From: an uncultured Alteromonadaceae bacterium
GTDB lineage: Bacteria > Pseudomonadota > Gammaproteobacteria > Enterobacterales > Alteromonadaceae
Length of the DNA: 64,000 bases
Direction: 5' to 3'
NCBI GenBank assembly: GCA_938085045.1
Contig: CALKGI010000168.1
Location: forward strand, 1-64,000
This document shows, one piece after another, positions 31,799 to 56,523 of the stretch. Every line of letters starts with the position of its first letter. The stretch's first letter is position 1. The notes under the pieces are model-generated. The model did not search any database, had not been told where the DNA came from, and saw nothing but the letters and a program-made list of their open reading frames with translations. Made by a program: the position numbers and the translations under genes.

Positions 31799-31801
31799 CC
31801 G

Positions 31802-39556: not shown

Positions 39557-42500
39557 TTGTTAAAAACAATGAGGATTAATGCGCATTTGCGTTTTATGCA
39601 GTGCTTGGCATGTTGTGCTGTGCTTATGAGCCTTTTATATCCCGTGTCTGTAATCGCGTCTATTTTGGTCAACCCGGGTCCTGTGGTCGAGAAAATTGAA
39701 AAAATCGCCGGACAAACACCCAAAGGCATCAAAACGCTCATTCAAGACCAATCAGGTTTTATGTGGCTGGCGACCAGCGAAGGGTTATTGCGATTTGACG
39801 GTCATTCAGTTAAACGTTTTGTTCATGATGTTAATAATCCTAAGTCACTGGCCCATAACGATATTCGCGGCATTGTTGAAGACAATAACGGTTACTTGTG
39901 GTTAATTACCAGAGGTGGAGGCTTAAGTCGTTTTACGCTAAAAACTGAACAATTCGATAATTTTGCCCATGTTCAGGGCGATATCACTACGCTCGACAGT
40001 AATCAGCTCAATGCCATTGCACTGGGCGACAACAATACTTTATGGATTGGCTCTAATCAGGGCATTAACCACTTTGACCGTACCACCTTAAAAAATAGTC
40101 GCTTCAATTCAGCCCTACAGCCGGGCGATGAAGCCGTGCGCGAGAATATAGACAAAATATTTGAGGATAAGCAACAGCGGTTGTGGTTTTCGCAGCGGCG
40201 TAAAGGGCTTTACCTGTATAACCCACAAAGCCAAAAGACCCAGCATTTTCAACATGATGCCAAAGACCTACACAGCCTTGACGCCAACATGGTTAGCGCC
40301 ATTTACCAGTCATCAGATGACAATATTTGGATTGGCACCTCGGTAAGTATCAATCGTTTCAATGCGGCTGCCTTTAATTTCGACCGCTTTGCCATACCAC
40401 TCAAAGAAAACAATAAGGTCAATCACGCCTCAGTCACTCGAATTTTTGAAGACGCTAACTTTGATATTTGGATAGGCACCTTTTATAACGGCGTGAGTTT
40501 GTTAAAAGCTGGCAGTCAAAACATTGTTAACCTAAATCAGTCTACCAAGCTCAAAGACAGCTTTGACGCGCTGCATATTAACGATATTTTTCAAGACCGT
40601 AGTGGCATATTATGGTTTGTTACCCCCAGAAAAGGTTTGGTTAAACTCAACCCCACAGCGATGAATTTTGCCCATAGATTAGTTAAGACCAAGGCGGCGA
40701 CTATCACCGCACTATTTGCTGACAGTAAAGGCGTTTTGTGGCTGGCGTCTCAAGGTAACCTCTACGCTCAGCAGCCCGATGCGCAAAGTGTTGAGCTAAT
40801 GGCGCAAAATGTTGGCCAAATTGAACAGCTTTATGAGAGTGAAAGCCATCACATTGTTTTTTACGTTAAAGACCAAGGTTATGTTAATTTTGACCCGCAA
40901 ACAAAACAGACCTCGCAATATAAAGGCGAGTATACCGGCGCTAATCCAGTAATGCCCGCTTCAATCCCGGTACGGATTGCGGGCACAGTGAATGTCAGCA
41001 TTGCCGATAAACAAGGGGTTTTGTGGCTGGGCACAAACACCGGATTGGTTCGCTTTGACCCAACTACCAACAAAACCACCACTTTTGGCCTGTTACAGGG
41101 GTTACGATTGGACTCGATAACCATGGGCACTATTTTGCCCTCGGGCGACGTTGTGATGGCAGGTAGTGCAGGGTTGGTGCGTTTTTCGCCGCAAAAGTCA
41201 GTGATATCCGGCGCTGCTAATACTGCAAAAGGCACCATAATGTTGTCTGATTTCAAACTGTTTAGCCAGTCGGTGCCATTACAATCTCAAGACGCCAGTT
41301 CACCGCTGGTTACCACCATCAACAAAACTGACGCCATTACGTTGTCGTACCAACAAAACTGGTTTTCTATCGCGTTTGCTAGCAGCTTTTATCAACAGGG
41401 CGAACAACAGCGATACGCTTTTAAAATGCAGGGCTTGTCTGAGCAATGGATTGAAACGGATGGCAATAATCGTATTGCCAACTTTACCTCGATAGCCCCG
41501 GGAGAATACGTTTTTAAAGTCAAAGTCGCCAAACCTGATGGCCGCTGGCACGATAATATTCGTTCACTTAATATCTCTATTACTCCGCCTTGGTGGCAAA
41601 CCAAACTGGCATACTTTTTATATATTGTTGCAGCGCTGGCGTTAATTGCGCTGTTTAACTCTTTGCGTACACGGCAACTAAGGCATCGTGCTACTAGGCT
41701 TGAAAAAGGCATTGAAGAACGCACCATTGAACTACGCCAACGCGCCGATACTATCGCCGGATTACTCGATGACAAAGACCGCTTAATTGCCAACATATCA
41801 CACGAGTTTAGAACACCGTTGACGTTGATCCTCGGCCCGTTAGCGGCTCAGATAAAAGCCGCCAGCAATGAACAATCCCAAGCGCAATTATCACTGGCAC
41901 AAGCCAATGCTCATCGTTTACTGGCGATGGTCGACCAATTGCTCGACATGGCTCGATTAAAAGACTTGCCCTCATCGAGCAAACAGCGCAAAGACGTGGC
42001 TAAAGTCTGCCAGTTTTTGGTGGGCTCGTTTACGCCACTGGCGCAAAATCGTGATATGGATTTACGGTTTGACAGTCATTTGACCCAAGCGATTCACGTC
42101 AACATGCAGCCCGATGGGTTAGAAAAAATTCTCTCTAATTTACTAACTAACGCGTTTAAATATTCAGGTGATAACACTCAAATTACCCTTGCTGTTACTA
42201 AATCAAAGGCGCTTGTTGAGATAAGCGTTAAAGACACTGGGCAGGGCATCAGTGAGCCAGATCAAAAGCAAATTTTCAAACGTTTCATTCGACTTAAAAA
42301 CAGTGCCGCCTACGTGCCCGGTGCCGGTATTGGATTGGCACTGGTTAAAGATTTGGTTGAACAGCATGAAGGTAACATCACAGTACACAGTGTTGTCGGC
42401 CAAGGCAGCACGTTTACTGTGGTATTGCCGATATCTAGCAGCAATCAAAGCGATAGCGAAGTGAACGAATCTGTGGTGATCTCGGCGGTAGAGCAGGTTA

Positions 42501-43426
42501 ATTCGAGTCAGCGTGAAGCGCTGACGGTTATTGAGCCATCTGAAAGTGAGTTAGACGACAGTGACAAAATCAATATCTTGGTGATAGAAGACAATCAAGA
42601 CATGCGCCAATACATAGTGTCGTGCCTTGGCGAGCGTTACTTGTGTGCACAAGCAGGTGACGGTGAAGAGGGGGTTGAAATGGCCCGAAAAAACCTGCCT
42701 GACTTAATTGTATCTGATGTCATGATGCCAAAAATGGATGGTTTTGAAGTCACTCAAACCCTTAAGAACGACCAAGCAACCAGTCACATTCCAATCATAC
42801 TACTTACCGCACGAGGCGACAGCGACAGCCGCATGAAAGGTTGGTCGCAAAGGGCTGACGAATTCCTTGAAAAACCGTTTAACACCATCGAACTATTGGC
42901 TAGAATCGACAATCTGCTGGCCATTCGCCGCCTGTTGCAACTGCGTTTTCAAGGAGAGTTTTCTAAGTTGGAGGCTGTAGTTGCAAGTAATTCAGAAAAG
43001 AATGCACAAAAGGGTGTAGAAAAGGGTGTAGAAAAGAGTGTAGAACAGACTGAAGTACCAGAGCAACAGCTCGTACAGACACCCGAACAAGCTCCGCCTG
43101 TTAACTTAGTGCATCAGGCTTTCGTTGAGCAGGCCAATCAAGTGCTTGAAAAATACTACGCCGATGAAAAGTTTGATGTCAGCCTGTTTGCCTCTGAAAT
43201 GGCGTTAAGCAGCCGTCAATTGGGCAGAAAGCTCAAAGCGCTGCTAGACATGACGCCTGCCGAGGCAATGCGTAACTTTCGCCTCAAAAAAGCCGCCGAA
43301 CAACTCAGTCAGGGCGTATCGCCAAGCGTGGTTTCTCACAAAGTTGGGTTTGGTACGCATTCTTATTTCACTCAATGTTTTAAAGCCAAATACGACTGCA
43401 ATCCTTCGGACTATTTTAAAGGATAA
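39557..43426 (+). CDS. Hybrid two-component sensor/AraC regulator (HTCS) with beta-propeller sensor
   Basis: A 1289-residue one-protein signalling system. An N-terminal signal/anchor is followed by repeated propeller units (GFMWLATSEGLLRFDG, GYLWLITRGGGLSRF, NTLWIGSNQGINHF and others) to about residue 550, a Y_Y_Y-type domain, a membrane helix (about 683-703), an H-box NISHEFRTPLTLILGPL (about 746-762), HATPase (DTGQGIS, GAGIGLALVK), a receiver with LIVSDVMMPKMDG (about 1053) and a C-terminal AraC HTH (about 1190-1289). Such proteins sense periplasmic ligands, often glycans. The start is TTG after GGGAGG; an ATG four codons later is possible. It points toward the lanthipeptide operon and could regulate it, but nothing proves that. 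Confidence 0.88.
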   Translation: MLKTMRINAHLRFMQCLACCAVLMSLLYPVSVIASILVNPGPVVEKIEKIAGQTPKGIKTLIQDQSGFMWLATSEGLLRFDGHSVKRFVHDVNNPKSLAHNDIRGIVEDNNGYLWLITRGGGLSRFTLKTEQFDNFAHVQGDITTLDSNQLNAIALGDNNTLWIGSNQGINHFDRTTLKNSRFNSALQPGDEAVRENIDKIFEDKQQRLWFSQRRKGLYLYNPQSQKTQHFQHDAKDLHSLDANMVSAIYQSSDDNIWIGTSVSINRFNAAAFNFDRFAIPLKENNKVNHASVTRIFEDANFDIWIGTFYNGVSLLKAGSQNIVNLNQSTKLKDSFDALHINDIFQDRSGILWFVTPRKGLVKLNPTAMNFAHRLVKTKAATITALFADSKGVLWLASQGNLYAQQPDAQSVELMAQNVGQIEQLYESESHHIVFYVKDQGYVNFDPQTKQTSQYKGEYTGANPVMPASIPVRIAGTVNVSIADKQGVLWLGTNTGLVRFDPTTNKTTTFGLLQGLRLDSITMGTILPSGDVVMAGSAGLVRFSPQKSVISGAANTAKGTIMLSDFKLFSQSVPLQSQDASSPLVTTINKTDAITLSYQQNWFSIAFASSFYQQGEQQRYAFKMQGLSEQWIETDGNNRIANFTSIAPGEYVFKVKVAKPDGRWHDNIRSLNISITPPWWQTKLAYFLYIVAALALIALFNSLRTRQLRHRATRLEKGIEERTIELRQRADTIAGLLDDKDRLIANISHEFRTPLTLILGPLAAQIKAASNEQSQAQLSLAQANAHRLLAMVDQLLDMARLKDLPSSSKQRKDVAKVCQFLVGSFTPLAQNRDMDLRFDSHLTQAIHVNMQPDGLEKILSNLLTNAFKYSGDNTQITLAVTKSKALVEISVKDTGQGISEPDQKQIFKRFIRLKNSAAYVPGAGIGLALVKDLVEQHEGNITVHSVVGQGSTFTVVLPISSSNQSDSEVNESVVISAVEQVNSSQREALTVIEPSESELDDSDKINILVIEDNQDMRQYIVSCLGERYLCAQAGDGEEGVEMARKNLPDLIVSDVMMPKMDGFEVTQTLKNDQATSHIPIILLTARGDSDSRMKGWSQRADEFLEKPFNTIELLARIDNLLAIRRLLQLRFQGEFSKLEAVVASNSEKNAQKGVEKGVEKSVEQTEVPEQQLVQTPEQAPPVNLVHQAFVEQANQVLEKYYADEKFDVSLFASEMALSSRQLGRKLKALLDMTPAEAMRNFRLKKAAEQLSQGVSPSVVSHKVGFGTHSYFTQCFKAKYDCNPSDYFKG

Positions 43427-43431
43427 GAATC

Positions 43432-43457
43432 AAGGGGTCAGAGACATTGAACCCCTA
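43432..43457. repeat. Short hairpin after the hybrid sensor gene
   Basis: AGGGGT (43433-43438) pairs with ACCCCT (43451-43456) seven bases after the stop. There is no T-run. The phrase GGGGTCAGAGACATTGA resembles the GGGGTCAGG start of the 66-bp hairpins at 26305 and 29371, so it is more likely a dispersed palindrome than a terminator. Confidence 0.45.
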
Positions 43458-43512
43458 AGAATTTAATTTAAATCAAAGTCTTAAAATCAAGGGGCCATAG
43501 AGAGGCCTATTT

Positions 43513-43672
43513 ATACCAATGACATTAATTCACTGGTCTGATTTTGGGCAGCGAAAATAAGCAGTAGCAAGGCATTAATCGCCGCCACTAGTCACTCTAA
43601 TGGCAAGGTTAATAACGAAGCTAATGCTTATTTTAGCCAGCAAAATGACCAGTTAATTAATGGAGTTGGTAT
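43513..43672. mobile_element. MITE-like element with ATACCAA terminal inverted repeats, copy 1
   Basis: A 160-bp element whose ends (from ATACCAATGACATTAATTCA and the complement of TTAATTAATGGAGTTGGTAT) match over about 50 bases as an imperfect inverted repeat, including ACTGGTC, ATTTTG and AAAATAAGCA. The same ends occur at 54431-54516. There is no coding capacity. It occupies the spacer before the lanB operon. Confidence 0.7.
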
Positions 43673-43855
43673 TAACTGCTTAAGATTCAATACGGGTCTA
43701 TTTAAACGAATTATGCCAAACCATTTATGTCACTCTCAAGCCAATTATTTGTAAAAAGATGACAGTGTTTTTCTTGTTCATTTCATAACGTAATGAGTTA
43801 TAACGATTAATTTATTTCATTTAAACTTTGAAGAACCACCATAAAACCTGCGCTA

Positions 43856-43884
43856 TTGGCTCATGGGGCGAATTTGACTATACT
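43856..43884 (+). promoter_or_regulatory. Candidate sigma-70 promoter of the lanB operon
   Basis: TTGGCT (43856-43861) and TATACT (43879-43884) are separated by exactly 17 bases. Transcription would start near 43891, giving a leader of about 95 bases that contains the 14-codon upstream reading frame. Apart from this and the two palindromic elements, 43427-43985 shows no gene. Confidence 0.5.
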
Positions 43885-43927
43885 AATGCACCACAATTAC
43901 AAGCAATATAAGCTTCAGGAGTGCGTT

Positions 43928-43972
43928 ATGCAGTACAAGCGCCACACGCACTGGAATGGGAAGTGTTTTTGA
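43928..43972 (+). CDS. Possible 14-residue leader peptide upstream of lanB
   Basis: ATG at 43928, six bases after a good AGGAG, encodes MQYKRHTHWNGKCF and stops at 43972, 13 bases before the lanB ATG and just ahead of its own AAGGAA site. The strong site and the position suggest a leader that tunes lanB translation, but 14 codons can arise by chance. Confidence 0.3.
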   Translation: MQYKRHTHWNGKCF

Positions 43973-43985
43973 TAAGGAATAAAGT

Positions 43986-46900
43986 ATGACTAAGAATTTT
44001 GCTTCTAGTGTAAAGCCAGCAGACTTTTTTATTTTGCGCACCGCCGCCCAATCGGTGCAGGCGCTGCGTGACTGGCAAGGCGAAGACCGCCAGACGCTGA
44101 TTGACCAACTCAAAGACTGGTTGAGTCAAGATGACGTTAAAGAAGCTCTTTATATTGCCTCCCCCTCTTTGGTTGACCGCATTCATTACTGGCATAAAGA
44201 CCCTGATTCTAAACAAGGCAAAAAAGTCGAAGCAGCGTTGGTTAAATATTTTACCCGCATGACCAGCCGTTCAACCCCTTTTGGTTTGTTTGCTGGGCTT
44301 GGTTGCGGCAAAATCAGCGAAACCAGTCACTTAGATTTAGATGAGTCGACTAAGATTCAACGCAATAGTCGTATCGACATGGGCTTTTTGGCCACACTGC
44401 AAGAGTCATTATTAAAAGACCCTAAAATATACAATAAACTGCCACTGAGCCCCAATCAAAGCTTGTACAAAATGGGCGAACAGTGGCGTTTTATCGAAAG
44501 TACCACCAAAAAAAATAGCCGCCAATACCGCTTGAGCAATGCCCAAAGCGACTGCTTTCTCGACAGTGTGCTTAACAACGCCAAAGGCAAGTTAACGGCT
44601 GGCGAACTGGCGAAATTGTTGTGTGATGAAGACGACGAAATCGAGCTTGAAGATGCGGTTGAGTACATAACCTCATTGATTGAAGAGCAGTTATTAATCC
44701 CCAATTTGCCGCTAAACATCACCGGCGACTGCCCTAATCAACAATTTTCCGACACCTTGTTAAAGCTTGGCCTGACAGAACAACACACCATTTTACAACA
44801 GGGCATTGACGATATTGCCAAGCTAGATGAGGACGGTCACAACGCTGGCGAAGACTATCAAGCCATTATCGACAATTTAAAAGCATTAGTGCCTGATTTA
44901 AGCCGCGATAAACTCTTTCAAGTCGATTATTTTCAGGCCAACGACCAACTGGCGTTGTCAAAAAACGTGACACAAGCCTTGCTCAAAGATTTGGCTAAAC
45001 TTGACCGCCTCAAAACTAAAAGTAAAGGCAATACTAAGCTCAAAGATTATATCCGCAAGTTCAACAATCGTTACGAAGGTCAGGCGGTGTCGCTTAGCCA
45101 GTTACTTGATGACGAAATGGGCCTGACGCTGCAAAGCAACACAGGTTACGAATCGCCCTTAATAGGCACTTTGCCGTTTAAAGACACCCCCGACACCCGG
45201 GCCAGTGCCGACCTAAAATGGAGCAGACTCGACAGTTTGCTTATGGACAAAGTGATTGCGGCAAGTGCCAGTGGTGCCAGCGAAATTGAGATCACCGACA
45301 AAGACATTAAAGACTTTCCTGAAAATAGCATAGCCGGCATGCCCCATTCATTTTCAACGCTGTGCTCTTTATATGCCAACAGTAATGAAGACCTCGATAG
45401 CGGCAAATTCAGCGCTAGGTTAAGCAGTTTTGGCGGTTCTACTGCTGGCAGCATGTTGGGGCGTTTTTGTCATTTGGATGAAGGTTTGCGAAACAACGTT
45501 CGCAATTTGCTTGAAGATGAACAAACCAGCAACCCCGAGGCTGTATACGCCGAGGTGGTGCATTTACCCCAAGGTCGTATCGGCAACGTTATTGCCAGAC
45601 CAGTATTACGCGAATACGAAATCCCCTTTTTAACCAGTAGCGGGGTCGACGAAGAGCATCAGATTAACATTGACGATTTATGGGTTTTTGTTGCTTATAG
45701 CCGTGTGGTTATTTGGTCGAAACGGCTCAAAAAAGAAGTTATTCCAAGGTTGTCGAGCGCCCACAATTATTCTGCACATGCGCTGAGTGTTTATCACTTT
45801 TTGTGTAGCCTGCAAAGTCAAACGTATCGCTTTTGCGGTTTTGGCTGGAGCGGTGCTTTTGGCAAATTAGACTATTTACCCCGAGTAAGATTGGGCCATT
45901 TGATTTGCGCACCACAATTGTGGCGTTTATCGTCAGATTTATGGTTGGCTTTCAAAAAAGTCAGTGCAGCTGATTTTGCCACCAAAATGGCGGCGTTTAG
46001 ACAAAAATACAAATTGCCCCAATGGATACTCTACAGTGTTGGCGACAACAACTTGCAAGTGAACTTGGCAAATCCTGTCGCCGTACAAACCTTTTTGAAC
46101 GAACTGAAAAAAGACCAAACCATCACGGTAGAAGAAGTGCTATCAGAGTCGTTTAAACTGGCTGCACAAACCAAAGGTCAGCCGGTTGAGCATGAGTTAT
46201 TATTGCCGATGGTGTGTCACCACGACAAGCCTAGTGGCTCAGTCAGGTCAGTTAAGCCTCCTTTTAATTTTGAACAAAAAGCGACAGGCACCCGCCAGCA
46301 TATACCGGGCGGGCAGTGGTTAATGCTTAAAATCTACACTGGCAACACCACTAGCGATTACTTGTTGCGCGACAAAATTGCACCACTGCTTAAAGAAGTG
46401 CTGCAACAAGCGTCTGTTAAGAGCTGGTTCTTTATGCGTTTTGGTGACCCTGATTGGCATATTAGGTTACGATTCAATGCAGCGCCCGAGGTGTTGTATG
46501 GCACTTTAATGCCTCAGCTGAATGCGTTGTTGCAACCTTTGTATCAGCAGGGGTTGGTCAATAAAGTTGAAGTAGTCACATACGAGCAAGAGCTCGAACG
46601 TTATGGCGGTGAGCAATGCATGGCGCTCAGCGAAAAAATGTTTCAGCATGATTCACAGGCCTGTTTGTCGTTACTTCAATTGCTTGAAGAGCAACCGGCT
46701 GATGTACGCTGGCAGGCGACTTTACTGGGCTGCGATTACTTGGTCAAAGACTTTGGTTTGAACACCGAGGCGTGTCATCAGTTGTTTAAAAGTCAGCGCG
46801 ACAACTTTGCCAAAGAATTTAATGAAACCTCGGTGTTGCGCAAAGAAATGGGCAAAAAATATCGGTTGCACGAAACCCACTTGCAGCAAATTTTGTTATC

Positions 46901-47153
46901 AGAAGAACAACCCCAGCTGTGGCAAGCCATTCATCAAGTTTTTGCTCAGCGAAGCAAGGACACAATTGAGGTTATTGCCTCGATACGTGAGTTAGAGCAG
47001 GCCCGCAAGTTGTGCATTAACGTCGAAATGCTGATTAGAAGTTACCTTCACATGTTTATGAATCGAATGTTTGTTTCCAACGCCCGACAGCAGGAGTTAT
47101 TGGTCTATGAATTTCTCAATCGAGTGTATGACTTTGCTAAGTTTCGGCGTTAA
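43986..47153 (+). CDS. Class I lanthipeptide dehydratase (LanB)
   Basis: A 1055-residue full-length LanB, which uses glutamyl-tRNA to glutamylate and then eliminate Ser/Thr in a precursor core, giving Dha/Dhb. The N-terminal glutamylation domain is recognisable by FILRTAAQS near the start and YFTRMTSRSTPFGLFAGLGCG (about residues 90-110), the diagnostic TPFG phrase of the family. The C-terminal elimination (SpaB_C-like) domain spans about 770-1050, starting GGQWLMLKIYTGNTTSDYLLRD and including WFFMRFGDPDWHIRLRF. It is cytosolic. The gene starts after AAGGAA and is followed by the adaptor gene after three bases, so it heads an operon of three. The split LanB forms used for thiopeptides are not seen. 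Confidence 0.92.
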   Translation: MTKNFASSVKPADFFILRTAAQSVQALRDWQGEDRQTLIDQLKDWLSQDDVKEALYIASPSLVDRIHYWHKDPDSKQGKKVEAALVKYFTRMTSRSTPFGLFAGLGCGKISETSHLDLDESTKIQRNSRIDMGFLATLQESLLKDPKIYNKLPLSPNQSLYKMGEQWRFIESTTKKNSRQYRLSNAQSDCFLDSVLNNAKGKLTAGELAKLLCDEDDEIELEDAVEYITSLIEEQLLIPNLPLNITGDCPNQQFSDTLLKLGLTEQHTILQQGIDDIAKLDEDGHNAGEDYQAIIDNLKALVPDLSRDKLFQVDYFQANDQLALSKNVTQALLKDLAKLDRLKTKSKGNTKLKDYIRKFNNRYEGQAVSLSQLLDDEMGLTLQSNTGYESPLIGTLPFKDTPDTRASADLKWSRLDSLLMDKVIAASASGASEIEITDKDIKDFPENSIAGMPHSFSTLCSLYANSNEDLDSGKFSARLSSFGGSTAGSMLGRFCHLDEGLRNNVRNLLEDEQTSNPEAVYAEVVHLPQGRIGNVIARPVLREYEIPFLTSSGVDEEHQINIDDLWVFVAYSRVVIWSKRLKKEVIPRLSSAHNYSAHALSVYHFLCSLQSQTYRFCGFGWSGAFGKLDYLPRVRLGHLICAPQLWRLSSDLWLAFKKVSAADFATKMAAFRQKYKLPQWILYSVGDNNLQVNLANPVAVQTFLNELKKDQTITVEEVLSESFKLAAQTKGQPVEHELLLPMVCHHDKPSGSVRSVKPPFNFEQKATGTRQHIPGGQWLMLKIYTGNTTSDYLLRDKIAPLLKEVLQQASVKSWFFMRFGDPDWHIRLRFNAAPEVLYGTLMPQLNALLQPLYQQGLVNKVEVVTYEQELERYGGEQCMALSEKMFQHDSQACLSLLQLLEEQPADVRWQATLLGCDYLVKDFGLNTEACHQLFKSQRDNFAKEFNETSVLRKEMGKKYRLHETHLQQILLSEEQPQLWQAIHQVFAQRSKDTIEVIASIRELEQARKLCINVEMLIRSYLHMFMNRMFVSNARQQELLVYEFLNRVYDFAKFRR

Positions 47154-47156
47154 CTG

Positions 47157-48416
47157 ATGTTCAGAAAAGCGGTTTTAAACAAAGAAAAAGACAGCGCATG
47201 GGGCGACATTATTTTGTTACCCCCGGCCAGTCTATACATCAGCACTATGATGGTGGCGTTAATCGTTATTTTGTCGCTGGTGTTTGTCAGCCTTAACGAT
47301 TATGAGAAAAAACAACGCGCTTTTGGTGTATTGGCCCCCGACAAAGGTCTGGTTAAGGTCTTTTCGCCGCGTAATGGTTTTGTCAAACAGCTGTTAATTG
47401 GCAAGGGCGATGTGGTCACTCAGGGACAGATTGTTGCGCTGGTGCAGGCACAATCGAGCGACAGCGAAGGCCGTCAGACTAATGTGCAATTAATTAACGA
47501 GTACAAAACCCAAAAAGACCATTTACTTGGCGAGCTGGGTCATGTCACAAAATTGTCTGATCTGAAAAAAGCCAACCTCAACTTAGCCATCACTGGCACA
47601 CAAAGCGAGATGAAGGTGCTCAACAGTCAATTGGCAATTGAGCAAGACAAGCATCAGCTAGCAGATTCTCGCTATCAGCAAAAAATAGCCGTGGGCGAGA
47701 AAAAATATCTCTCGGGCGATGACTTAGCCAGCGCCAAGCAAGCCGTGTTGAGCATTGCCGCTAGGGTGGCGCAAATTCAACTGCAACTGACTCAACAGCA
47801 AAACAAGTTGGCCGGTGACAAAATGCAACTTAGTCAGGTTGATGACAAAGCCACACAAAGCCAACTGGCGATAAAGCTGAGATTATCAGAATTGTCACAG
47901 CGAATTATTCAGGCCCAAAGTGAGCACTCATTTACCGTCAAAGCACCTATAGCTGGCACTGTGTCGTCGTTACAAATTGTGCAGGGTAATAACATTACTA
48001 GCCAAACACCGTTGCTGTCGATAATTCCTGAAGGGGCCGTACTTGAGGCAAAATTGTTGGTACCTAGCCGCGCAATCGGCTTTATGAGCCCGGGGCAAAC
48101 GGTTCGGTTACGTTATGACGCTTTTCCGTTTCAGCGCTATGGTACTTACGTGGGTCAAGTGCTGACCATTTCAAAAAGTACCTTGTCGGCTAGTGAATTG
48201 ACCCAAAGTTTAGGGGTGAGTGAATGGCCCAGACAAGAGAGTGAAGCGGTTTATTTGGTGGATGTTAGTCTGCAATCCCCAGTTGTTACCGCCTATGGTA
48301 GAGACATCGATTTACAGGCTGGTATGTCGTTAAATGCCGACATCATTTTGGAGAAACGCTCATTGATGCAATGGTTGCTTGATCCCCTATATAGCATTAG
48401 CGGACGAATAGAATGA
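47157..48416 (+). CDS. HlyD-family adaptor of the lanthipeptide exporter
   Basis: A 419-residue membrane fusion protein with one N-terminal helix (MMVALIVILSLVFVSL, about 26-41), two lipoyl halves (GLVKVFSPRNGFVKQLLIGKGDVV and FTVKAPIAGTVSSLQIVQG), a helical hairpin (about 115-240) and a C-terminal barrel, as in CvaA/RaxA-type bacteriocin export adaptors. It has no strong RBS of its own; translation probably couples to lanB (gap of three bases). Its stop overlaps the exporter ATG (ATGA). It connects the C39 exporter to an outer-membrane TolC encoded elsewhere. Confidence 0.88.
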   Translation: MFRKAVLNKEKDSAWGDIILLPPASLYISTMMVALIVILSLVFVSLNDYEKKQRAFGVLAPDKGLVKVFSPRNGFVKQLLIGKGDVVTQGQIVALVQAQSSDSEGRQTNVQLINEYKTQKDHLLGELGHVTKLSDLKKANLNLAITGTQSEMKVLNSQLAIEQDKHQLADSRYQQKIAVGEKKYLSGDDLASAKQAVLSIAARVAQIQLQLTQQQNKLAGDKMQLSQVDDKATQSQLAIKLRLSELSQRIIQAQSEHSFTVKAPIAGTVSSLQIVQGNNITSQTPLLSIIPEGAVLEAKLLVPSRAIGFMSPGQTVRLRYDAFPFQRYGTYVGQVLTISKSTLSASELTQSLGVSEWPRQESEAVYLVDVSLQSPVVTAYGRDIDLQAGMSLNADIILEKRSLMQWLLDPLYSISGRIE

Positions 48417-50515
48417 AAACAGATATTTCCTTGTTAAATTTTGGTAGTGGCAACCGCTTACCGGCGATTTTGCAAACCGAAGCGGCCGAATGTGGCTTGA
48501 CCTGTTTGGCGATGGTGCTCAACTATTACGGCCACAAAATTGATTTGGCGGTATTGCGCGAAAGGCACAGTGTATCGCTGCACGGCATCACCCTAATTGG
48601 GCTGATGGACATTGCCGAAAGTATGCATTTGTCGAGTCGACCGCTCAAGCTTGGCTTGGGCGCTTTGGCTAAACTGCAAACACCGTGCATTTTGCATTGG
48701 GATATGGACCACTTTGTGGTGCTCAAAAAGGTTACGCGCAAAGGTCTGGTCATTCATGACCCTGCCAGTGGCGAGCGAACCGTGTCTTTTGAAAAAGCCG
48801 ACAAGCATTTCACTGGCATTGCTCTAGAGTTGTTTCCAACCGAATCATTTGAAGAAAAGAGCGAAACACGGCGTTTGTCGTTAGAAAAACTGTGGAATAA
48901 AACCCTCGGATTAAAGCGTTCTTTGTTTAACATTATTGTGCTGTCGGCAGTATTGCAGGTATTTGCGCTGGTACTGCCGTTTTATAGTCAGCTGATATTT
49001 GATGACGTGTTGATTAGCGTCGACATGGATTTATTGACGGTGCTGGCCAGTGGTTTTTTACTGATTGAATTACTCAAAGGGGCCACCAATTTTATTCGCT
49101 CGTACGCCGCTTTGCACCTGAGCAGCAAAATGAGCTTTCAGTTGTCGCTTAACATCTTTCGGCACCTTATACGCTTGCCGGGCGACTTTTTTGGCAAGCG
49201 CCATATTGGTGATGTGTTGTCGCGGTTTATGTCATCCCACCAAATTCGTACGTTGCTTACCGATGGCGTAGTTACGGTGCTGATTGACGGCATTATGGCC
49301 GTCACTACATTGATTTTAATGTTTGTTTACAGCCCTACGCTAACGTACGTATCGTTATGCGTGATGTTGCTTTACTTTGTGATTCGCCGAGCTGCCTATC
49401 AGCTCACTCGCGATGCGATGGAAGAGTCGATAGTGGCTAAGGCCGAAGAAAACAGCAACTTTTTAGAGACTGTACGGGCCATCAAAGGGATTAAAACCTT
49501 TGGTAAAGAGAATGACCGCACCAACGTATGGCAGCAAAAGCTGGCACGAATGATTAACGCCGACATTAAGGTTAACAAACTTAAAATTGGCTTTAGCACT
49601 GCCCATGAAATTTTGTTTGGCATCGAAACCGTTGTCGTCATGTACTTGGGCGCTAAGCTCATCATGAACAACGAATTGTCGGTGGGTATGTTAATTGCGT
49701 TTATCGCCTACAAGAGCAACTTTTTGCAGCGCGGTTACAGCCTGATAGAAAAATTCCTTGAATTCAAAATTCTCGGCCTGCACTTAGAACGCTTGGCTGA
49801 CATTGTTATGCACCCCCAAGAAGAGACGGGCACGCTAAACCGTAATACCGAGATTAAAGGCGAAATTAACTGTAAAGACATCAGCTTTCGCTATGCCAGT
49901 AATGAAGCTGACGTACTGAAAAAACTCAATTTTAAAGTGGGTGTTGGCGAATCGGTGGCTATCACGGGGCAGTCGGGCTGCGGTAAAACCACGCTGATGC
50001 AATTGCTGGTGGGTTTGTATCAACCAACATCAGGCAGCATCGAGATAGACGGCGAAGAGCTGTCGAGCGTTGGCCTTGGCAACTACCGCAGGCAAATTGC
50101 AGCGGTGCATCAAGACGACCAATTACTGTCGGGCACTATTGCCGACAATGTCAGTTTTTTTGATCCAACACCAGACACCGAACACGTCAGCAAATGTTGC
50201 AAAATGGCGGGTATTCTTGCTGACATAGAAGCTATGCCAATGAAGTTCAATACCTTGATAGGTGATATGGGCTCGGCACTGTCGGGCGGTCAAAAACAGC
50301 GTATTTTCCTTGCTAGGGCATTATACAAAAATCCCAAAATCATCATCCTCGATGAAGCAACAAGCCACCTCGACCACAACGCAGAGAGCATAGTGAACGA
50401 TGCGATAAAGTCGCTGAACATCACGCGAATTATCATAGCCCATCGTAAAGAAACCATTGCAAGTGCAGATAAGGTGTTTGAAATGTCAGATGGGGTGATG
50501 GTAGAGAAGGTCTGA
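48413..50515 (+). CDS. Peptidase-containing ABC exporter (C39, LanT/CvaB-like)
   Basis: A 700-residue bacteriocin-type exporter. The N-terminal C39 cysteine protease (1-125) has all catalytic residues: Cys27 in AAECGLTCLAMV, His100 in MDHFVVL and Asp116 in IHDPASG. It cuts after a Gly-Gly leader and matches the VAGG leader of the precursor at 53263. Six membrane helices (about 165-440) are followed by the ATPase with GQSGCGKTT (about 520), LSGGQ (about 622) and ILDEATSHLD. It acts in the inner membrane with the HlyD adaptor to mature and secrete the product. Confidence 0.92.
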   Translation: MKTDISLLNFGSGNRLPAILQTEAAECGLTCLAMVLNYYGHKIDLAVLRERHSVSLHGITLIGLMDIAESMHLSSRPLKLGLGALAKLQTPCILHWDMDHFVVLKKVTRKGLVIHDPASGERTVSFEKADKHFTGIALELFPTESFEEKSETRRLSLEKLWNKTLGLKRSLFNIIVLSAVLQVFALVLPFYSQLIFDDVLISVDMDLLTVLASGFLLIELLKGATNFIRSYAALHLSSKMSFQLSLNIFRHLIRLPGDFFGKRHIGDVLSRFMSSHQIRTLLTDGVVTVLIDGIMAVTTLILMFVYSPTLTYVSLCVMLLYFVIRRAAYQLTRDAMEESIVAKAEENSNFLETVRAIKGIKTFGKENDRTNVWQQKLARMINADIKVNKLKIGFSTAHEILFGIETVVVMYLGAKLIMNNELSVGMLIAFIAYKSNFLQRGYSLIEKFLEFKILGLHLERLADIVMHPQEETGTLNRNTEIKGEINCKDISFRYASNEADVLKKLNFKVGVGESVAITGQSGCGKTTLMQLLVGLYQPTSGSIEIDGEELSSVGLGNYRRQIAAVHQDDQLLSGTIADNVSFFDPTPDTEHVSKCCKMAGILADIEAMPMKFNTLIGDMGSALSGGQKQRIFLARALYKNPKIIILDEATSHLDHNAESIVNDAIKSLNITRIIIAHRKETIASADKVFEMSDGVMVEKV

Positions 50516-50567
50516 TTTTGTTTGATATTTTAGATCATTACAACTCGACTTAACGCCCGGTTTGGAG

Positions 50568-50601
50568 GATGGGTTAGGCGAGGTACGAGCCGTAACCCAT
50601 C
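50568..50601. repeat. Extragenic palindrome GATGGGTTA / TAACCCATC, copy 2
   Basis: The same nine-base stem as at 36051-36088, with a shorter, different loop (50577-50592). It lies after the exporter stop. The rest of 50516-50747 holds only the Hsp20 terminator. Confidence 0.7.
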
Positions 50602-50693
50602 GGTTATTTGATGCCGACAGATCACCTTGTTCTATGTCCAAATTCGGCAATCCTTCCTTCATTTGAGATTTGAACAAGCCCCCTCGTAAAACC

Positions 50694-50719
50694 AAAAACA
50701 CCCAGCAAAGCCGGGTGTT
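50694..50719 (-). terminator. Intrinsic terminator of the Hsp20 gene
   Basis: On the minus strand AACACCCGGC pairs with GCTGGGTGTT (one G-T wobble) around a TTT loop, followed by a run of T residues. It lies 29 bases after the stop of the Hsp20 gene. Confidence 0.75.
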
Positions 50720-50747
50720 GTTTGAATCAAACCGTTAACTCAAAAGT

Positions 50748-51188
50748 TTAACCGTCGATTAATTTGCCTTTCTTGTTGATGGCAATTTTGCGCGGTTTCA
50801 ACGCTTCGGGTACTTCTCTTAACAATTCGATGTGCAACAGGCCGTTTTCGATGTTGGCATCGATGACTTTAACAAAGTCGCCTAGCTGGAATTTGCGTTC
50901 GAAGTTTCGTTCGGCAATGCCCTGATACAGAAATTCTTTTTCCTGTGTTGGTTTGGCTTTGGTGCCTTTGACGATTAGGTGGTTTTGTTGTGATTCAATG
51001 TCTAACTCTTCTTCTACAAACCCGGCCACAGCCATGGTGATGCGGTATTTGTCTTCGGCCAGTAACTCAATGTTGTACGGCGGGTAAGAAGGTTGTTTTT
51101 CTTGACGTGAGGCGTTATCAACCATAGAAGCGAGATGATCAAGGCCAATAAATGAACGGTACAGTGGAGATAAGTCTAAATTACGCAT
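50748..51188 (-). CDS. Small heat shock protein, Hsp20/IbpA family
   Basis: A 146-residue alpha-crystallin chaperone that holds unfolding proteins for the DnaK/ClpB machinery. MRNLDLSPLYRSFIGLDHLA is the IbpA-type start; the crystallin domain (about 35-125) includes YPPYNIELLAEDKYRITMAVAG and GLLHIELLREVPE, and the C-terminal I-x-I anchor is KIAIN. The Glu-Lys-rich end is normal. It lies between the two strands of the lanthipeptide cluster but has its own leader and terminator, so it is probably not part of the pathway. See the leader feature for a possible RNA thermometer. Confidence 0.92.
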   Translation of the reverse strand: MRNLDLSPLYRSFIGLDHLASMVDNASRQEKQPSYPPYNIELLAEDKYRITMAVAGFVEEELDIESQQNHLIVKGTKAKPTQEKEFLYQGIAERNFERKFQLGDFVKVIDANIENGLLHIELLREVPEALKPRKIAINKKGKLIDG

Positions 51189-51194
51189 AGTGAT

Positions 51195-51255
51195 ACCCTT
51201 AAAATAAGCAATATTTAATTTTGTGCTCTTCTGACCAGATTACGTGTAATTCTGG
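51195..51255 (-). promoter_or_regulatory. Hsp20 leader with ROSE-like hairpin over the ribosome binding site
   Basis: On the minus strand TTGCTT (plus 51206-51211) can fold back on the Shine-Dalgarno-like AAGGG (plus 51195-51200), leaving G-G and U-U type mismatches, as in ROSE thermometers of ibpA genes. A second hairpin, ACCAGAATTA / TAATCTGGT, lies just upstream (51233-51255). Together they suggest heat-controlled translation. The region 51256-51647 beyond it is AT-rich and shows no further gene. Confidence 0.45.
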
Positions 51256-51647
51256 TGCTGCGAACGAGCGATTTGTGTCTTTAAATTAACCGCTTGATAT
51301 GCCCTTATGGCCAAGTGGTTTTGGTTAGGCTCCTGTCGGCAACCTGTAAATAGATTTGAGGATGAGGAAATGGTTTTTCAAGTAAAAAGATAAAGAAAGT
51401 TTTAAATTATATTTATAGTTGTTTAAAATCAATTGGTTACAATCGTAAATAAATTAACTTTATTTAAATGGTTATTTACATCACAACAAAAAAAACCTGC
51501 ATTTGTCGTATATCTACGATTTTTTGTCGAGTATGAAAGAACCTGAAAGCGCTGTTTTGGATAAAATGGTTTCAAGTTATCGGGTTGGACAAGTTATTAA
51601 CCAAACCGGCACTTCAATCACTAATAAGCAACCAAGGGTTAATCACA

Positions 51648-51761
51648 ATGAAAGCTGTTATCACTGAAAATATGAATTGTTTGGCTGAAACCACTGCTTT
51701 AACCGGTTTGTATTGTGCTTTGTTGTATATGGGCAGTCAGTTTGTTATGGCGATTATTTAA
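51648..51761 (+). CDS. Possible 37-residue membrane peptide
   Basis: ATG at 51648 after AAGGGTT encodes a 37-residue product that opens MKAVITENMNCLAETTALTG and has a hydrophobic C-terminal half (LYCALLYMGSQFVMAII). It could be a single-pass small membrane protein. It lies between the divergent Hsp20 gene and the convergent lanC stop. The family is unknown and it may be chance; if expressed, an immunity or regulatory role for the lanthipeptide cluster is a guess. Confidence 0.3.
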   Translation: MKAVITENMNCLAETTALTGLYCALLYMGSQFVMAII

Positions 51762-51908
51762 TTTCAATGCCGTCGATTGTCAAATCGAATGCTGGAAAGA
51801 TTTGCTACTGTTTTTACTGATGACTTTGGCGATATTCCCAAGTATTCTTCTATATTCCTCTTTAGGAATACCTAGTTTTTCCCGTATTTGCAGCCAAATC
51901 ATTCGCCA

Positions 51909-53138
51909 TTAACCCAACATCAATACTTCATCCCAGTCTGGTTCTTTGGTTTGTATTGCGGCCAGTAATGCCAGACCAATACCGGCAAAACCTTCAAGAA
52001 AACCGAGGTCTTCTTCAGCTGCGTTGTTTCTACCTCTAAAGTAGTTAAATCCGCTGAGATCTTCATCACTGTCAACAAGTTCAAGGGTTTGTGCTAACCA
52101 GTACTGGGCTGCTGTTGTTAAGGTTTCGTCTCCACTGTAGAAAGATAAGCGTTGATACATAAACATTATGCCGCTGCTACCGTGACAAAAACTGGCATCG
52201 ACCATGCCCGATTGATCTTTTTTACGTTCACAAGTGGTTATTGCAATAGACAAGGCTGCATCAGCTAACGCTTTGTTTTGTAGAACTAAACCTGCTTTAT
52301 ACAACACGTAGGCATTGCTTAAGTCGCCATAACACCAACCAAGACGACTTTCGCATTGTTTGAGGCTGTTGTAAGAGAAATAACTTTGTGATGGGTCATC
52401 ATTTTTTTGGGCCAATAACCAATCGCAGGCACTTTGTAGCAAAGGGGCGGTTTGTGTTAATAACACATGTTTTTTAACGGCCTTACTTAACAAAGCAATG
52501 ACGCCTGTGGTGCCATGCGCCAATCCTAGGTTAACTTCTTCGGTATTCTTATCGCCTTGCCTGTAAGCTGAACCGGTATCAGTCACCCAATAAGTACCAT
52601 TGCTGTCGGTGCATTTGTTTTTTATTAAGTGATGAATGACTTTTTCTGCAATTCTTTTGCCACTGTCGATATCACAACGACCCAAGCCGTAAAGCCCTAT
52701 ACCACACAGGCCGCTGATCAGCTCATATTCGCCTGTCCATCGGGTTGTAGATAGCAATTGCTCAAAATGTTGATCTAATTCTTCATTATAATCTTCGAAT
52801 GGTTCGGGGCTGTTGTGTTGTAAGTAATCTACTGTCCAGGCAATACCAGCCAGACCATTGTAAAGAGAAGGAGTCACTTGATTGCCTTCAATTACTTGAT
52901 AAACCATTTGCCAGCCTGCGTTAATGACATCTGTACAATCTTGAGGGTTTTCAATAAGTCTTTGATAATTAGTCAGAAAAAGACTAATTCCTGGGATGCC
53001 GCTTGCCAAACTAATATTTTTTTCTAGTACTGATTTTTCGGCTAAACGTTTGGCTAGAGCTCTGATTAGATTGATTATTTTAGTGGTTTGCATTTCATTG
53101 GCTACAGGGGACCACGTAATCGTATGTTGTGTTGGCAA
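51909..53138 (-). CDS. Lanthionine synthetase C-like cyclase (LanC)
   Basis: A 409-residue LanC, the zinc cyclase that adds Cys thiols to Dha/Dhb in the precursor. The zinc ligands are Cys269 (GWCYGD), Cys318 and His319 (SFCHGSSG); the catalytic His208 sits in LGLAHGTTG. Repeating GxxG phrases (SGIPGISLFL, NGLAGIAW, SGLCGIGLYGLG, EGFAGIGLALL) mark the alpha/alpha toroid. The start TTG at 53138 is chosen because AAGGAG lies six bases upstream; the ATG at 53093 has no good site and the frame upstream crosses a terminator stem. It lies downstream of the precursor gene on the same strand, behind that terminator, so read-through sets its level. Confidence 0.9.
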   Translation of the reverse strand: MPTQHTITWSPVANEMQTTKIINLIRALAKRLAEKSVLEKNISLASGIPGISLFLTNYQRLIENPQDCTDVINAGWQMVYQVIEGNQVTPSLYNGLAGIAWTVDYLQHNSPEPFEDYNEELDQHFEQLLSTTRWTGEYELISGLCGIGLYGLGRCDIDSGKRIAEKVIHHLIKNKCTDSNGTYWVTDTGSAYRQGDKNTEEVNLGLAHGTTGVIALLSKAVKKHVLLTQTAPLLQSACDWLLAQKNDDPSQSYFSYNSLKQCESRLGWCYGDLSNAYVLYKAGLVLQNKALADAALSIAITTCERKKDQSGMVDASFCHGSSGIMFMYQRLSFYSGDETLTTAAQYWLAQTLELVDSDEDLSGFNYFRGRNNAAEEDLGFLEGFAGIGLALLAAIQTKEPDWDEVLMLG

Positions 53139-53156
53139 AACAGGCTCCTTAAAACC

Positions 53157-53191
53157 AAAAAAGAACCCACGACAACAATTTGCCGGGGTTC
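53157..53191 (-). terminator. Strong terminator/attenuator between precursor and lanC genes
   Basis: On the minus strand GAACCC-CGGCAA pairs with TTGTCG-T-GGGTTC around the tetraloop ATTG, a stem of twelve pairs with one bulge, followed by six T residues (plus 53157-53162). It would stop most transcripts after the precursor gene and let a fraction reach lanC, whose ribosome binding site begins seven bases beyond the T-run. Confidence 0.85.
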
Positions 53192-53262
53192 TGATAGTAT
53201 AATCGTTGGTGCCGCATTTCAAATAGTTTGTGTCACAGCACTAGTGGCCTATAGCCCTACGA

Positions 53263-53442
53263 TTAGCTTTCTTGAGGTGGGTAGCAAATCTGACCAGTGA
53301 TGCCGTGACAATCAGCAATACAAGTCAAATATGTTGGGATACCACCAGCAACTTTAGCTGTATCTTCCATTGGCAAAGATTCGATATCTGCTGACAATTC
53401 CATTACCTTTGCTTTTTTCAGTTTCAATTTCTTGAATTCCAT
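53263..53442 (-). CDS. Lanthipeptide precursor (LanA-like, double-glycine leader)
   Basis: A 59-residue precursor. The start at 53442 follows TAGGAG with perfect spacing; a frame extending 66 codons upstream is AT-rich noise. The leader (1-34) is Lys-rich then acidic, MEFKKLKLKKAKVMELSA..., and ends VAGG, a C39-type cleavage site. The 25-residue core begins IPTYLTCIADC and ends YPPQES, with Thr37, Thr40, Thr49 and Ser59 as dehydration sites and Cys41, Cys45 and Cys53 as thiols, enough for three thioether rings. It stands first on the minus strand, ahead of a terminator and lanC. No second precursor was found nearby. Confidence 0.85.
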   Translation of the reverse strand: MEFKKLKLKKAKVMELSADIESLPMEDTAKVAGGIPTYLTCIADCHGITGQICYPPQES

Positions 53443-53475
53443 AATTACTCCTAAGTCTTTGTTTATTAGTTGAAT

Positions 53476-53487
53476 TCCCAAATGGGA
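53476..53487. promoter_or_regulatory. Small palindrome upstream of the precursor gene
   Basis: TCCCA-AA-TGGGA, a perfect five-base dyad, lies 34 bases upstream of the precursor start in its promoter region. It is a possible operator; no regulator can be named. Confidence 0.3.
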
Positions 53488-54020
53488 TAGCAAGTGTACT
53501 GAAAATATTTTTGGATTACAAATCATCAAAAATTGGCTGTTTTTTGTATTTATTAATAAAAAACAATAAGTTACATTTTTCGTGTGGGTACGAAGAGAGC
53601 TTCTTGGCCGGGCGTTGATAATTATCGTCTTGTTATTCATAAAATTGGTGCGACGTTGTGCCTATACAAAGTGTCAATTTCAATGAAAATGGACAAAATT
53701 AGTCATTGTTAAAATCTGGCCTCGGCTGTAAAAAACTGAACTCTATCGAATTATAAAGTAACAAATAATCGTGTAACTCACTGATATTATGAAATATTAT
53801 TGTTGTCGTCTTTTTATTGATATAATTTGGCTTATTATTGATAACGCTTTTACCCAGTAATCATTAATATGTGTAACCAGTTACCGAGCAGAACAAACGT
53901 TAAAAAGGAAGTTGTTTAAAAAAGGATGGCAATCAGTGAAACGGACGTTGTATCAATCAGGAATGTTAGCTGTATAAAAGGAACTAGGATATAAACGGAT
54001 TGCATGGGTAATGGGAATTA

Positions 54021-54108
54021 GTTAAAACGGAAGCGGTAAAACAGGATAGCGTGTAAAGGAAGCTGTTAAAACGGAAGCGGTAAAACAGGAAAGCGTGTAA
54101 AGGATAGG
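54021..54108. repeat. 44-bp tandem repeat in purine-rich DNA
   Basis: Two adjacent 44-bp units (54021-54064 and 54065-54108) share GTTAAAACGGAAGCGGTAAA and ACAGG.AAGCGTGTAAAGGA. Degenerate phrases (GGAAGCTGTAAAATAGGAAG, GGAAGTTGTTTAAAA) spread from about 53905 to 54165. The plus strand is strongly purine-rich. There is no coding evidence on either strand. The remainder of 53443-53900 is AT-rich promoter-like sequence ahead of the precursor gene. Confidence 0.65.
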
Positions 54109-54269
54109 TGTTAAGGAAGTCGTTGAACAATGGAAGCTGTAAAATAGGAAGATTGTATAAAAGGGTTGTTTGGCACTCTCGGGGTTGCCAGGAAATATGT
54201 AGGGGTTCACGTGCATGGAATGACGCAATGTGGCAATGACGGAGCATATTGTCTTGGGATTTACGTGGG

Positions 54270-54783: not shown

Positions 54784-56523
54784 TTATTTGCTCGCATCGT
54801 ATACGGTAATACCGTAGTGCTGTTTGTCTGTCGGCGGATTGGCATTCCAATCTTCAAAAGAGTGGCTGCCGTCGGTGCGAAAGTAGAGCTTGTATTTGCC
54901 TTTTGGCAGGGTGACCACTTCATTGACCTGACGGTTTTTACCCGCGCCGCCGGCGTGTTCGGTTTCATCGGCAAACATGTACCAAACCCGTTTGCCGGTT
55001 TCGCTGTTTTTGATGTAACCGTAATCTGACATGTCACCAGAATCGCCCTCGCCGATGGCATAAATGCGGACTTTTTGTTCGGCCGTCAGTTCAAACTCTT
55101 TTGAACGGCGCTGTCCATCGCCAACCCGAACAATCTGGGCAATGGCGTTTGAATCTGCTGATTTAAGCATTTCAATTGATTTTTTGTCGAAGTCATTACC
55201 AACACCATACAAGCTGATACCCCATTTCTTTTCATCATGTGGACGCGATGCATTCCAGCCGCCATCGTATGAATGAGAGCCATCAGATTCATAATTAACA
55301 GTGTATTCACCCGCTGGCAAGTAGATTATCTCATCACTGATGCGGTTCTTGCTTGAACCACCAGCGTGCTCGGTATCTCGGACTTTCATACTCCAAACTT
55401 TTGAATGGTCTTTGCTGTTTACAATCCAACCATGGTCGGCCATGTTGCGGCTGCTAGCGCGTTCACCTAGGGCGACTACGCGAACATTAGTGGCTTTAGA
55501 TAGCTTAAAGTGTTTGCTTACATATGCATTGTCGCCAACTTTAGAAATGCTCAAAACTTTCAGTGCGTCGAGTCTTTCTTTGGGATTAAACATTTCAACC
55601 TTGGCTGCTTTGTCGGCATAAACGCTGACACCCCAAGCTTGTGGATCGTAAGGTGGTTGGCTGTTCCAATCGTTGTAGTGATGGCTACCATCACTAGAAT
55701 AACTCATCACGTATGAACCTTTGCTCACCGGAACTGTGCCCTTGAACTTGCGGTTTTTACGCGCGCCACCGGCAGCTTCGGTAGATTTTTTGTCCATCTT
55801 CCAAACAACTTCACCCGTATCTGCATTTTTTAACCAAGCAGAATCTGCCTCGTCTTTACCAGCAATTTCACCCAGTGCGTATATCGATAATTCAGTGTCT
55901 TTGGCAACGCTAAGGCCAAACTGCTCGAAGCGGTTTTTACGTACTTTGTGAAGGCTGACGACTTCTTTGGTGCCGGCAAAAGGGTTGAAAGATTTTTCAG
56001 GTGTGATTTTTTCGATGTCTTTGGCACGTAAATCGACATAAAAGCTCTCTATGTCTTCATGGGTGATTTTGTTGTCGTCACGCAGTAAGGTTGACAGCCC
56101 ATATAAGAAAAAGTCCATGCCGCTGTGGGATTCAGCTCGAAAGTTGTGGGTAGAGTAAAACATGCCGTAACGGCCTTTGTCGAGATTGACTTTGTCGCCA
56201 TAAACTTTGAGTCTGCGATTTTTACCCGCTTCTATTTCGTCTGCTCTGCGTGAGCGCCAGACGGTTTCGCGAGTGTTTAAATCGATGATCCAAACAAAAT
56301 CAGTGAGGTTACGATCGCCATTTCGGTCTTCGTCATAGTCACTTTCGATGACACTTTTGGGGGCTAGAAACTCGATTTCGACTTTCTGGTCTTCGCTCAG
56401 TTCAAAATAGCTGCTTTTGATGTCGTGGGCATCTAGTCGGCTAATGCTGACAGTTTCGGCAACGGCGTTGTGGGCAAACATTGTCGTGCCGAGTAGCCCA
56501 GCCAGTTTAACAAATCGATTCAT
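54784..56523 (-). CDS. Secreted protein of four related domains, unknown function
   Basis: A 579-residue exported protein with a signal peptide (MNRFVKLAGLLGTTMFAHNAVA) after an AGGGAA site. It is built from four related units of about 130 residues. Units 2-4 share a block reading roughly W/Y-x-K/R-N...E.AGG..KNR, then a strand ending Y-x-x-x-Y-x-SDGSH-Y-x-DWN-x-x-PP-D-x-x-x-WGI-x-Y. Unit 1 is divergent (KNRRLKVYG, MFYSTHNFRAESHSGMDFFLYG). The composition suggests beta-sandwich domains with conserved aromatic, acidic and Gly-Asn surface residues that could bind sugar or metal. I do not recognise the family. It is a single-gene unit with its own terminator. Confidence 0.7.
   Translation of the reverse strand: MNRFVKLAGLLGTTMFAHNAVAETVSISRLDAHDIKSSYFELSEDQKVEIEFLAPKSVIESDYDEDRNGDRNLTDFVWIIDLNTRETVWRSRRADEIEAGKNRRLKVYGDKVNLDKGRYGMFYSTHNFRAESHSGMDFFLYGLSTLLRDDNKITHEDIESFYVDLRAKDIEKITPEKSFNPFAGTKEVVSLHKVRKNRFEQFGLSVAKDTELSIYALGEIAGKDEADSAWLKNADTGEVVWKMDKKSTEAAGGARKNRKFKGTVPVSKGSYVMSYSSDGSHHYNDWNSQPPYDPQAWGVSVYADKAAKVEMFNPKERLDALKVLSISKVGDNAYVSKHFKLSKATNVRVVALGERASSRNMADHGWIVNSKDHSKVWSMKVRDTEHAGGSSKNRISDEIIYLPAGEYTVNYESDGSHSYDGGWNASRPHDEKKWGISLYGVGNDFDKKSIEMLKSADSNAIAQIVRVGDGQRRSKEFELTAEQKVRIYAIGEGDSGDMSDYGYIKNSETGKRVWYMFADETEHAGGAGKNRQVNEVVTLPKGKYKLYFRTDGSHSFEDWNANPPTDKQHYGITVYDASK

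Follow-up and report, generated by a model that had tools for sequence, protein, structure and literature searches.

The window analysed here, the first 64,000 nucleotides of contig CALKGI010000168.1 from an uncultured Alteromonadaceae bacterium, contains a complete class I lanthipeptide locus with a dehydratase (LanB), a cyclase (LanC), a precursor peptide (LanA), an HlyD-type adaptor and an ABC exporter with a C39 peptidase domain (Table 1). The genes form two converging groups, a tight lanB-hlyD-abc operon and a lanA-lanC pair, with a small heat-shock gene between them. The preliminary description of this DNA had proposed a class I locus with a Gram-negative export set, made of a plus-strand operon for LanB, HlyD and the exporter and, on the minus strand, a LanC with an intact zinc site and a 59-residue double-glycine precursor; domains, motifs and coordinates agree with it on each of these points. 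It was made from the window only, so precursors far from the enzymes were outside its view.

Table 1. Features of the lanthipeptide locus and its immediate surroundings (positions in the window).
Feature	Position	Strand	Evidence
Hybrid two-component regulator, 5' of lanB	39557-43426	+	Reg_prop, HisKA, HATPase_c, Response_reg, HTH_18
lanB, full-length glutamyl-tRNA-dependent dehydratase, 1055 amino acids	43986-47153	+	PF04738, PF14028, motifs
HlyD-type periplasmic adaptor, 419 amino acids	47157-48416	+	PF13437 (E 7.6e-18)
ABC exporter with C39 peptidase domain, 700 amino acids	48413-50515	+	PF03412, PF00664, PF00005
IbpA-like small heat-shock protein, between both gene groups	50748-51188	-	PF00011 (E 9.4e-20)
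lanC cyclase, 409 amino acids from TTG at 53138	51909-53138	-	PF05147
Hairpin and T-run between lanA and lanC	53157-53192	-	same hairpin in the near relative DT_2 (locus L006)
lanA precursor, 59 amino acids	53263-53442	-	sequence, translation, leader-profile match

LanB matches PF04738 (E 9.8e-143) and PF14028 (E 1.5e-64) over nearly the whole of both profiles. It carries the motifs RMTSRSTPFGLF, RIDM, HIRLR, YEQELERYGG and LHMFMNRM, the first four of which lie opposite their NisB counterparts in an alignment with NisB, MibB and 9g04. A thiopeptide reading of this protein (TIGR03891) was discarded, since that domain is the LanB C terminus and a LanC is present. In an alignment with NisC and 8byk, the cyclase (PF05147, E 2.4e-44, scored on a longer frame) shows GLAHG, WCYG and CHG where NisC has the corresponding motifs. 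Its likeliest start is the tabulated TTG, six bases after AAGGAG, and not the TTG at 53222 that opens the longest frame. It is the single LANC-like match in the genome (an 81% complete assembly) and, there being no second one in that assembly, no LanM, LanKC or LanL was seen in it. The adaptor also matches TIGR01843 (E 2.2e-37, under the curated cut-off of that model), and the exporter combines Peptidase_C39 (E 3.4e-34) with ABC_membrane and ABC_tran domains. Cys, His and Asp motifs are visible in its translation, and presumably have their usual roles in the C39 peptidase.

The precursor consists of a 34-residue leader ending in a double glycine, MEFKKLKLKKAKVMELSADIESLPMEDTAKVAGG, followed by a 25-residue core, IPTYLTCIADCHGITGQICYPPQES, with three Cys and four Ser/Thr; an AGGAG stands 5' of the gene. 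The leader fits the pattern LxLxKx5L exactly and is matched by the leader profile described below (E 2.0e-12). The FxLD motif of nisin-type class I precursors was not found in it, and none of seven precursors compared with the NCBIfam model lant_leader_L1a (NF038153) reached its curated cut-off of 22 bits, the best (12.6 bits) being from G533, a genome of the same class.

A scan of genome contigs for LanB, which required exact short peptides, matched one relative, the metagenome-assembled genome DT_2 of Algicola sp. (NCBI order Alteromonadales). This is the nearest relative found, and it bears out the Alteromonadales-like host suggested beforehand. Its lanthipeptide locus (L006) has the gene order of the window, a LanB 88% identical in the best segment, a LanC that starts with TTG and a precursor identical at 49 of 59 residues. 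The window locus is therefore more than a chance assembly, because DT_2 keeps gene order, LanB and precursor. The leader is better conserved than the core: between the two lanA genes the leader codons show five synonymous and two nonsynonymous changes and the core codons five and eight, respectively; despite the latter, core residues T3, T6, C7, C11, T15, C19 and S25 are kept. In L006 the gap from the hybrid regulator to lanB holds a second precursor (9470-9655, plus strand); the corresponding gap of the window (43427-43985) has no precursor, and its sequence looks unrelated.

A second precursor of the window's genome lies away from the enzymes, on contig C35: MNFKKLKLKKTRIMALSNDIEALPLEATTQVVGG followed by IMTTKCQTEEQVGTDPEVTMQDCS, with the same leader as lanA. 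It has an ortholog on contig C547 of DT_2, and the two leaders differ by 13 synonymous and three nonsynonymous changes. These two genomes are the whole genus sample for the window.

The scatter of precursors is far more pronounced in a related genus (g12). A leader profile was built from 21 leaders (from G000, DT_2, G096 and G244) and searched in 108 genomes of this genus. Leader matches (E <= 1e-4) appeared in 51 of the 108 and LanB also in 51, and these were the same 51 genomes, 50 of which had contributed nothing to the profile. Altogether there are at least 1,270 matches. A genome has between 1 and 69 of them, with a median of 19 (the counts of six genomes being minimum values), and 39 of the 51 have ten or more. 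Most are known as profile matches, precursor sequences having been read in G244 and G673 only.

In G244, a g12 genome of the same family as the window, the operon reads HlyD, C39-ABC, LanC, LanB. No leader match was seen in the 19.5 kb around it, the nearest being about 3.3 kb 5' of HlyD, and its 20 matches are distributed over seven or more contigs. In the complete genome G673, 65 matches were counted at E <= 1, 19 on one of its two contigs and 46 on the other, and 62 of them reach E <= 1e-4; with a gap of 2 kb they fall into 50 groups, none closer to LanB than 20,191 bases. Other genomes of the genus, such as G652, G654 and G683, do have a precursor close to LanB. The cores read are hypervariable and rich in Cys (9-13% of residues vs a background of 0.9%, taken from 16,522 residues of long open reading frames near the G673 loci). 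Both Cys and Ser/Thr are present in 54 of the 55 cores read, and each of the best-scoring 30 of the 65 in G673 contains two or more Cys together with Ser/Thr (Cys making up 12.7% of these cores).

No common partner was apparent among ten genes flanking seven precursor loci of G244 and G673, which code for a beta-lactamase, an FKBP, a phosphatase, a glyoxalase, a flavin oxidoreductase, a spondin domain, an aspartoacylase, a phospholipase, a TonB plug and one product without match. The single G673 precursor compared with plasmids and phages matched none of them at E 1. The best plasmid matches to a g12 LanB were from Spirosoma and Hymenobacter (ca. 31%), which we take to be Bacteroidetes. As a separate observation, G632 and G688 have two LanB each, the second divergent (41% and 34% identical to the G244 LanB).

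A published class I region of Pseudoalteromonas viridis BBR56 (1,199,639-1,224,010 of chromosome 1; PMC11015633; here and below, reports are cited from their accessible parts) begins exactly 10,000 bases ahead of the LanB frame in genome G718, from which we infer that G718 is this strain and g12 the genus Pseudoalteromonas. Leader matches number 28 in G718, and at least one of them is inside the published region.

LanB was found in three of 247 genomes sampled from the order, the window's own included, and the same three have leaders. Since these helped build the profile, the informative part of the sample is the 244 genomes with neither; they gave no leader match at E <= 0.001. Among 14 genomes of the same family lacking LanB, seven had no match at E 10 and seven had partial ones (best E 0.004). 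In the class sample LanB occurred in three of 369 genomes, again counting the window's, and one of these matches (G442) is weak and partial. The earlier statement that such clusters are uncommon outside Bacteroidetes was therefore too strong, given LanB in 51 of 108 g12 genomes, although few genomes of the order and class samples have it. In G096, of the same order, a precursor separates the exporter from LanC, and the two LanB matches of this genome probably represent a single LanB divided between contigs. In G533, one open and one damaged precursor precede LanC, LanB, HlyD and ABC.

In the scheme that we propose, LanB would dehydrate Ser and Thr in the cores of leader-bearing precursors, using glutamyl-tRNA, and LanC would add the Cys thiols to give (methyl)lanthionine rings. 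Cleavage behind the double glycine would fall to the C39-ABC exporter, and release of the peptide to the HlyD adaptor together with a putative outer-membrane channel. The leader would act as an address tag, and therefore precursors may lie away from the enzymes. In the window's genome the enzymes would serve at least two precursors, one by lanC and one on another contig; in g12, a single LanB-bearing locus would be accompanied by as many as 69 precursors that carry the leader and have hypervariable cores. The common leader and its co-occurrence with LanB suggest that all the scattered precursors are substrates of one enzyme set; each scattered peptide would then be modified and exported. The weakest step is the last one, a possible use of the products in competition or signalling between marine bacteria. 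We consider it likely that this is a class I LanB/LanC system acting like the class II prochlorosin system, with leader-addressed precursors scattered over the genome. With somewhat less assurance, we lean towards a broader view, namely that it is a class I counterpart of the prochlorosins in marine gammaproteobacteria, with up to about 69 precursors per genome, arisen independently and not yet described, of which the window shows a modest form.

The most serious objection concerns novelty, as scattered class I precursors may already have been described in a paper beyond the literature searched, which was mostly that of journals free of subscription. However, no such title or abstract is among the literature matches listed, two recent papers, PMC12328550 (2025) and PMC11251773 (2024), mention class II enzymes in their accessible parts when they speak of multi-precursor or scattered systems, and the P. 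viridis report gives a single class I region for that organism (PMC11015633, accessible part). We regard an earlier description as unlikely, though it is the alternative to be taken most seriously.

Several observations weigh against the proposed scheme itself. The acidic residue of the NisC motif YDVIEG, which we take to be catalytic, is Glu in the window LanC alignment. The strict LxLxKx5L pattern is present in 28 of the 55 leaders read, all 55 fitting only a looser pattern of our own making. The 51 g12 genomes share ancestry, so the chance probability of their exact overlap (about 5e-32 if genomes were independent) is a gross underestimate. Two of the 55 cores have one Cys and one, in G244, has none. 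Furthermore, the leaders co-occur with the whole locus (LanB, with LanC and exporter by synteny), and because of this, export without modification remains compatible with the data: the scattered double-glycine peptides would leave the cell linear or disulfide-linked, with LanB and LanC acting on few of them. The leader could indeed address the exporter alone, a core without Cys suits this reading, and the searches made do not separate the presence of LanB from that of the exporter. Nevertheless, the richness of the cores in both Cys and Ser/Thr and a leader of the kind reported for class I precursors of Bacteroidetes (PMC7268733, accessible part) make it improbable.

Least probable of all is an ordinary one-product cluster, with the in-cluster precursor as sole substrate and the orphans as decaying or incidental copies; the low numbers of leader matches at E <= 0.001 in the window's genome (two, 81% complete) and DT_2 (three), a further point against our scheme, would suit it, as would broken precursor copies in G533 and G244 (in the latter at C4:66926-67003, where a frame change in an A-rich stretch is either decay or sequencing error), but DT_2 retains the C35 orphan with mostly synonymous leader changes, of the 20 G244 loci read 19 are open and almost all have a purine-rich ribosome site, and most of the 51 LanB-bearing g12 genomes have ten or more matches.

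As to the surroundings of the locus, the hairpin and T-run between lanA and lanC are likely a partial terminator, which might allow more lanA than lanC to be made. The fold z-scores of -2.71 and -3.77 refer to entire stretches of 118 and 101 nucleotides, and a consensus scan gave three terminator-like sites in the region vs 1.8 expected, near chance. Promoter-like sites in 51700-53900 were also at chance level (six found, 6.1 expected). Repeated short units resembling CTTCCGTTTTAAC are found 5' of lanA in the window (about 53990-54150) and in L006 (19880-19982). The hybrid regulator, also 5' of lanB in DT_2, is a possible regulator of the locus. A 14-residue frame just 5' of lanB was rejected as a gene given its many amino-acid changes with respect to L006. 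The IbpA-like protein (IbpA model E 6.9e-55, under the model cut-off) probably has no role in the pathway. Elsewhere in the window, 30611-34966 (plus strand) holds a pair of HlyD-type adaptor and AcrB-type pump that resembles an ordinary efflux system of the resistance-nodulation-division family, and a frame of 579 amino acids (54784-56523, minus strand) matched nothing in Pfam or NCBIfam at E 0.01.

In the accounts accessible to us, the lanthipeptide libraries found in nature that come from a single tolerant enzyme are those of cyanobacterial class II enzymes, and no function is known for them. If our reading is correct, this arrangement arose more than once, and systems of the g12 type may be a second natural way to peptide libraries. 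Peptide engineering would gain a tolerant dehydratase and a tolerant cyclase as separate enzymes, and what such libraries are for would be testable in culturable marine bacteria through one lanB gene. Genome mining restricted to the surroundings of LanB and LanC would miss most of these peptides.

The window cluster itself joins the class I lanthipeptides already known from Alteromonadales. These are the Pci system of P. citrea DSM 8771, whose PciA was modified in E. coli, the tRNA-Glu of that host being enough for the P. citrea enzymes (PMC9993889), thalassomonasins A and B from Thalassomonas actiniarum and the viridisins from T. viridans (PMC11433236, PMC11015633). They have class I enzymes and come from the same order as the window, with precursors described inside the cluster, not scattered. 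Thalassomonasin A has a 25-residue core with three Cys, as has the window precursor (a comparison by description only), and a leader of 29 residues (PMC11433236). The LxLxKx5L leader, the Gly-Gly end and the C39 exporter of the window recall the Bacteroidetes class I precursors, reported with this leader, Gly-Gly and a C39 protease (PMC7268733). The precursors considered here differ from those in the gammaproteobacterial host, in the partial adherence to the strict motif (28 of the 55 leaders read) and in not reaching the lant_leader_L1a cut-off (seven compared), and the window leader differs from nisin-type ones in lacking FxLD.

No description of scattered class I precursors was found in the literature searched (mostly journals free of subscription, among the matches listed), nor in the accessible parts of PMC10456417 and PMC9576775. 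Scattered or multi-precursor systems are named there for class II enzymes (PMC11251773, PMC12328550, PMC9872173, PMC10783134), such as ProcM with 29 precursors (PMC12328550) and SyncM with up to 79. What looks new, judging from the genomes, is thus a class I enzyme set with leader-addressed precursors scattered over the genome. With the cyanobacterial prochlorosins and SyncA, g12 has in common a conserved leader, hypervariable cores and many precursors distributed over the genome; g12 shows this organisation, and the window's genome has two precursors only, one of them remote. The differences lie in separate LanB and LanC instead of a class II LanM, in zinc motifs with C, C, H in the window LanC against C, C, C in the prochlorosin system (PMC11251773), and in other leaders and hosts. 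The g12 system resembles the prochlorosin system and is no member of it.

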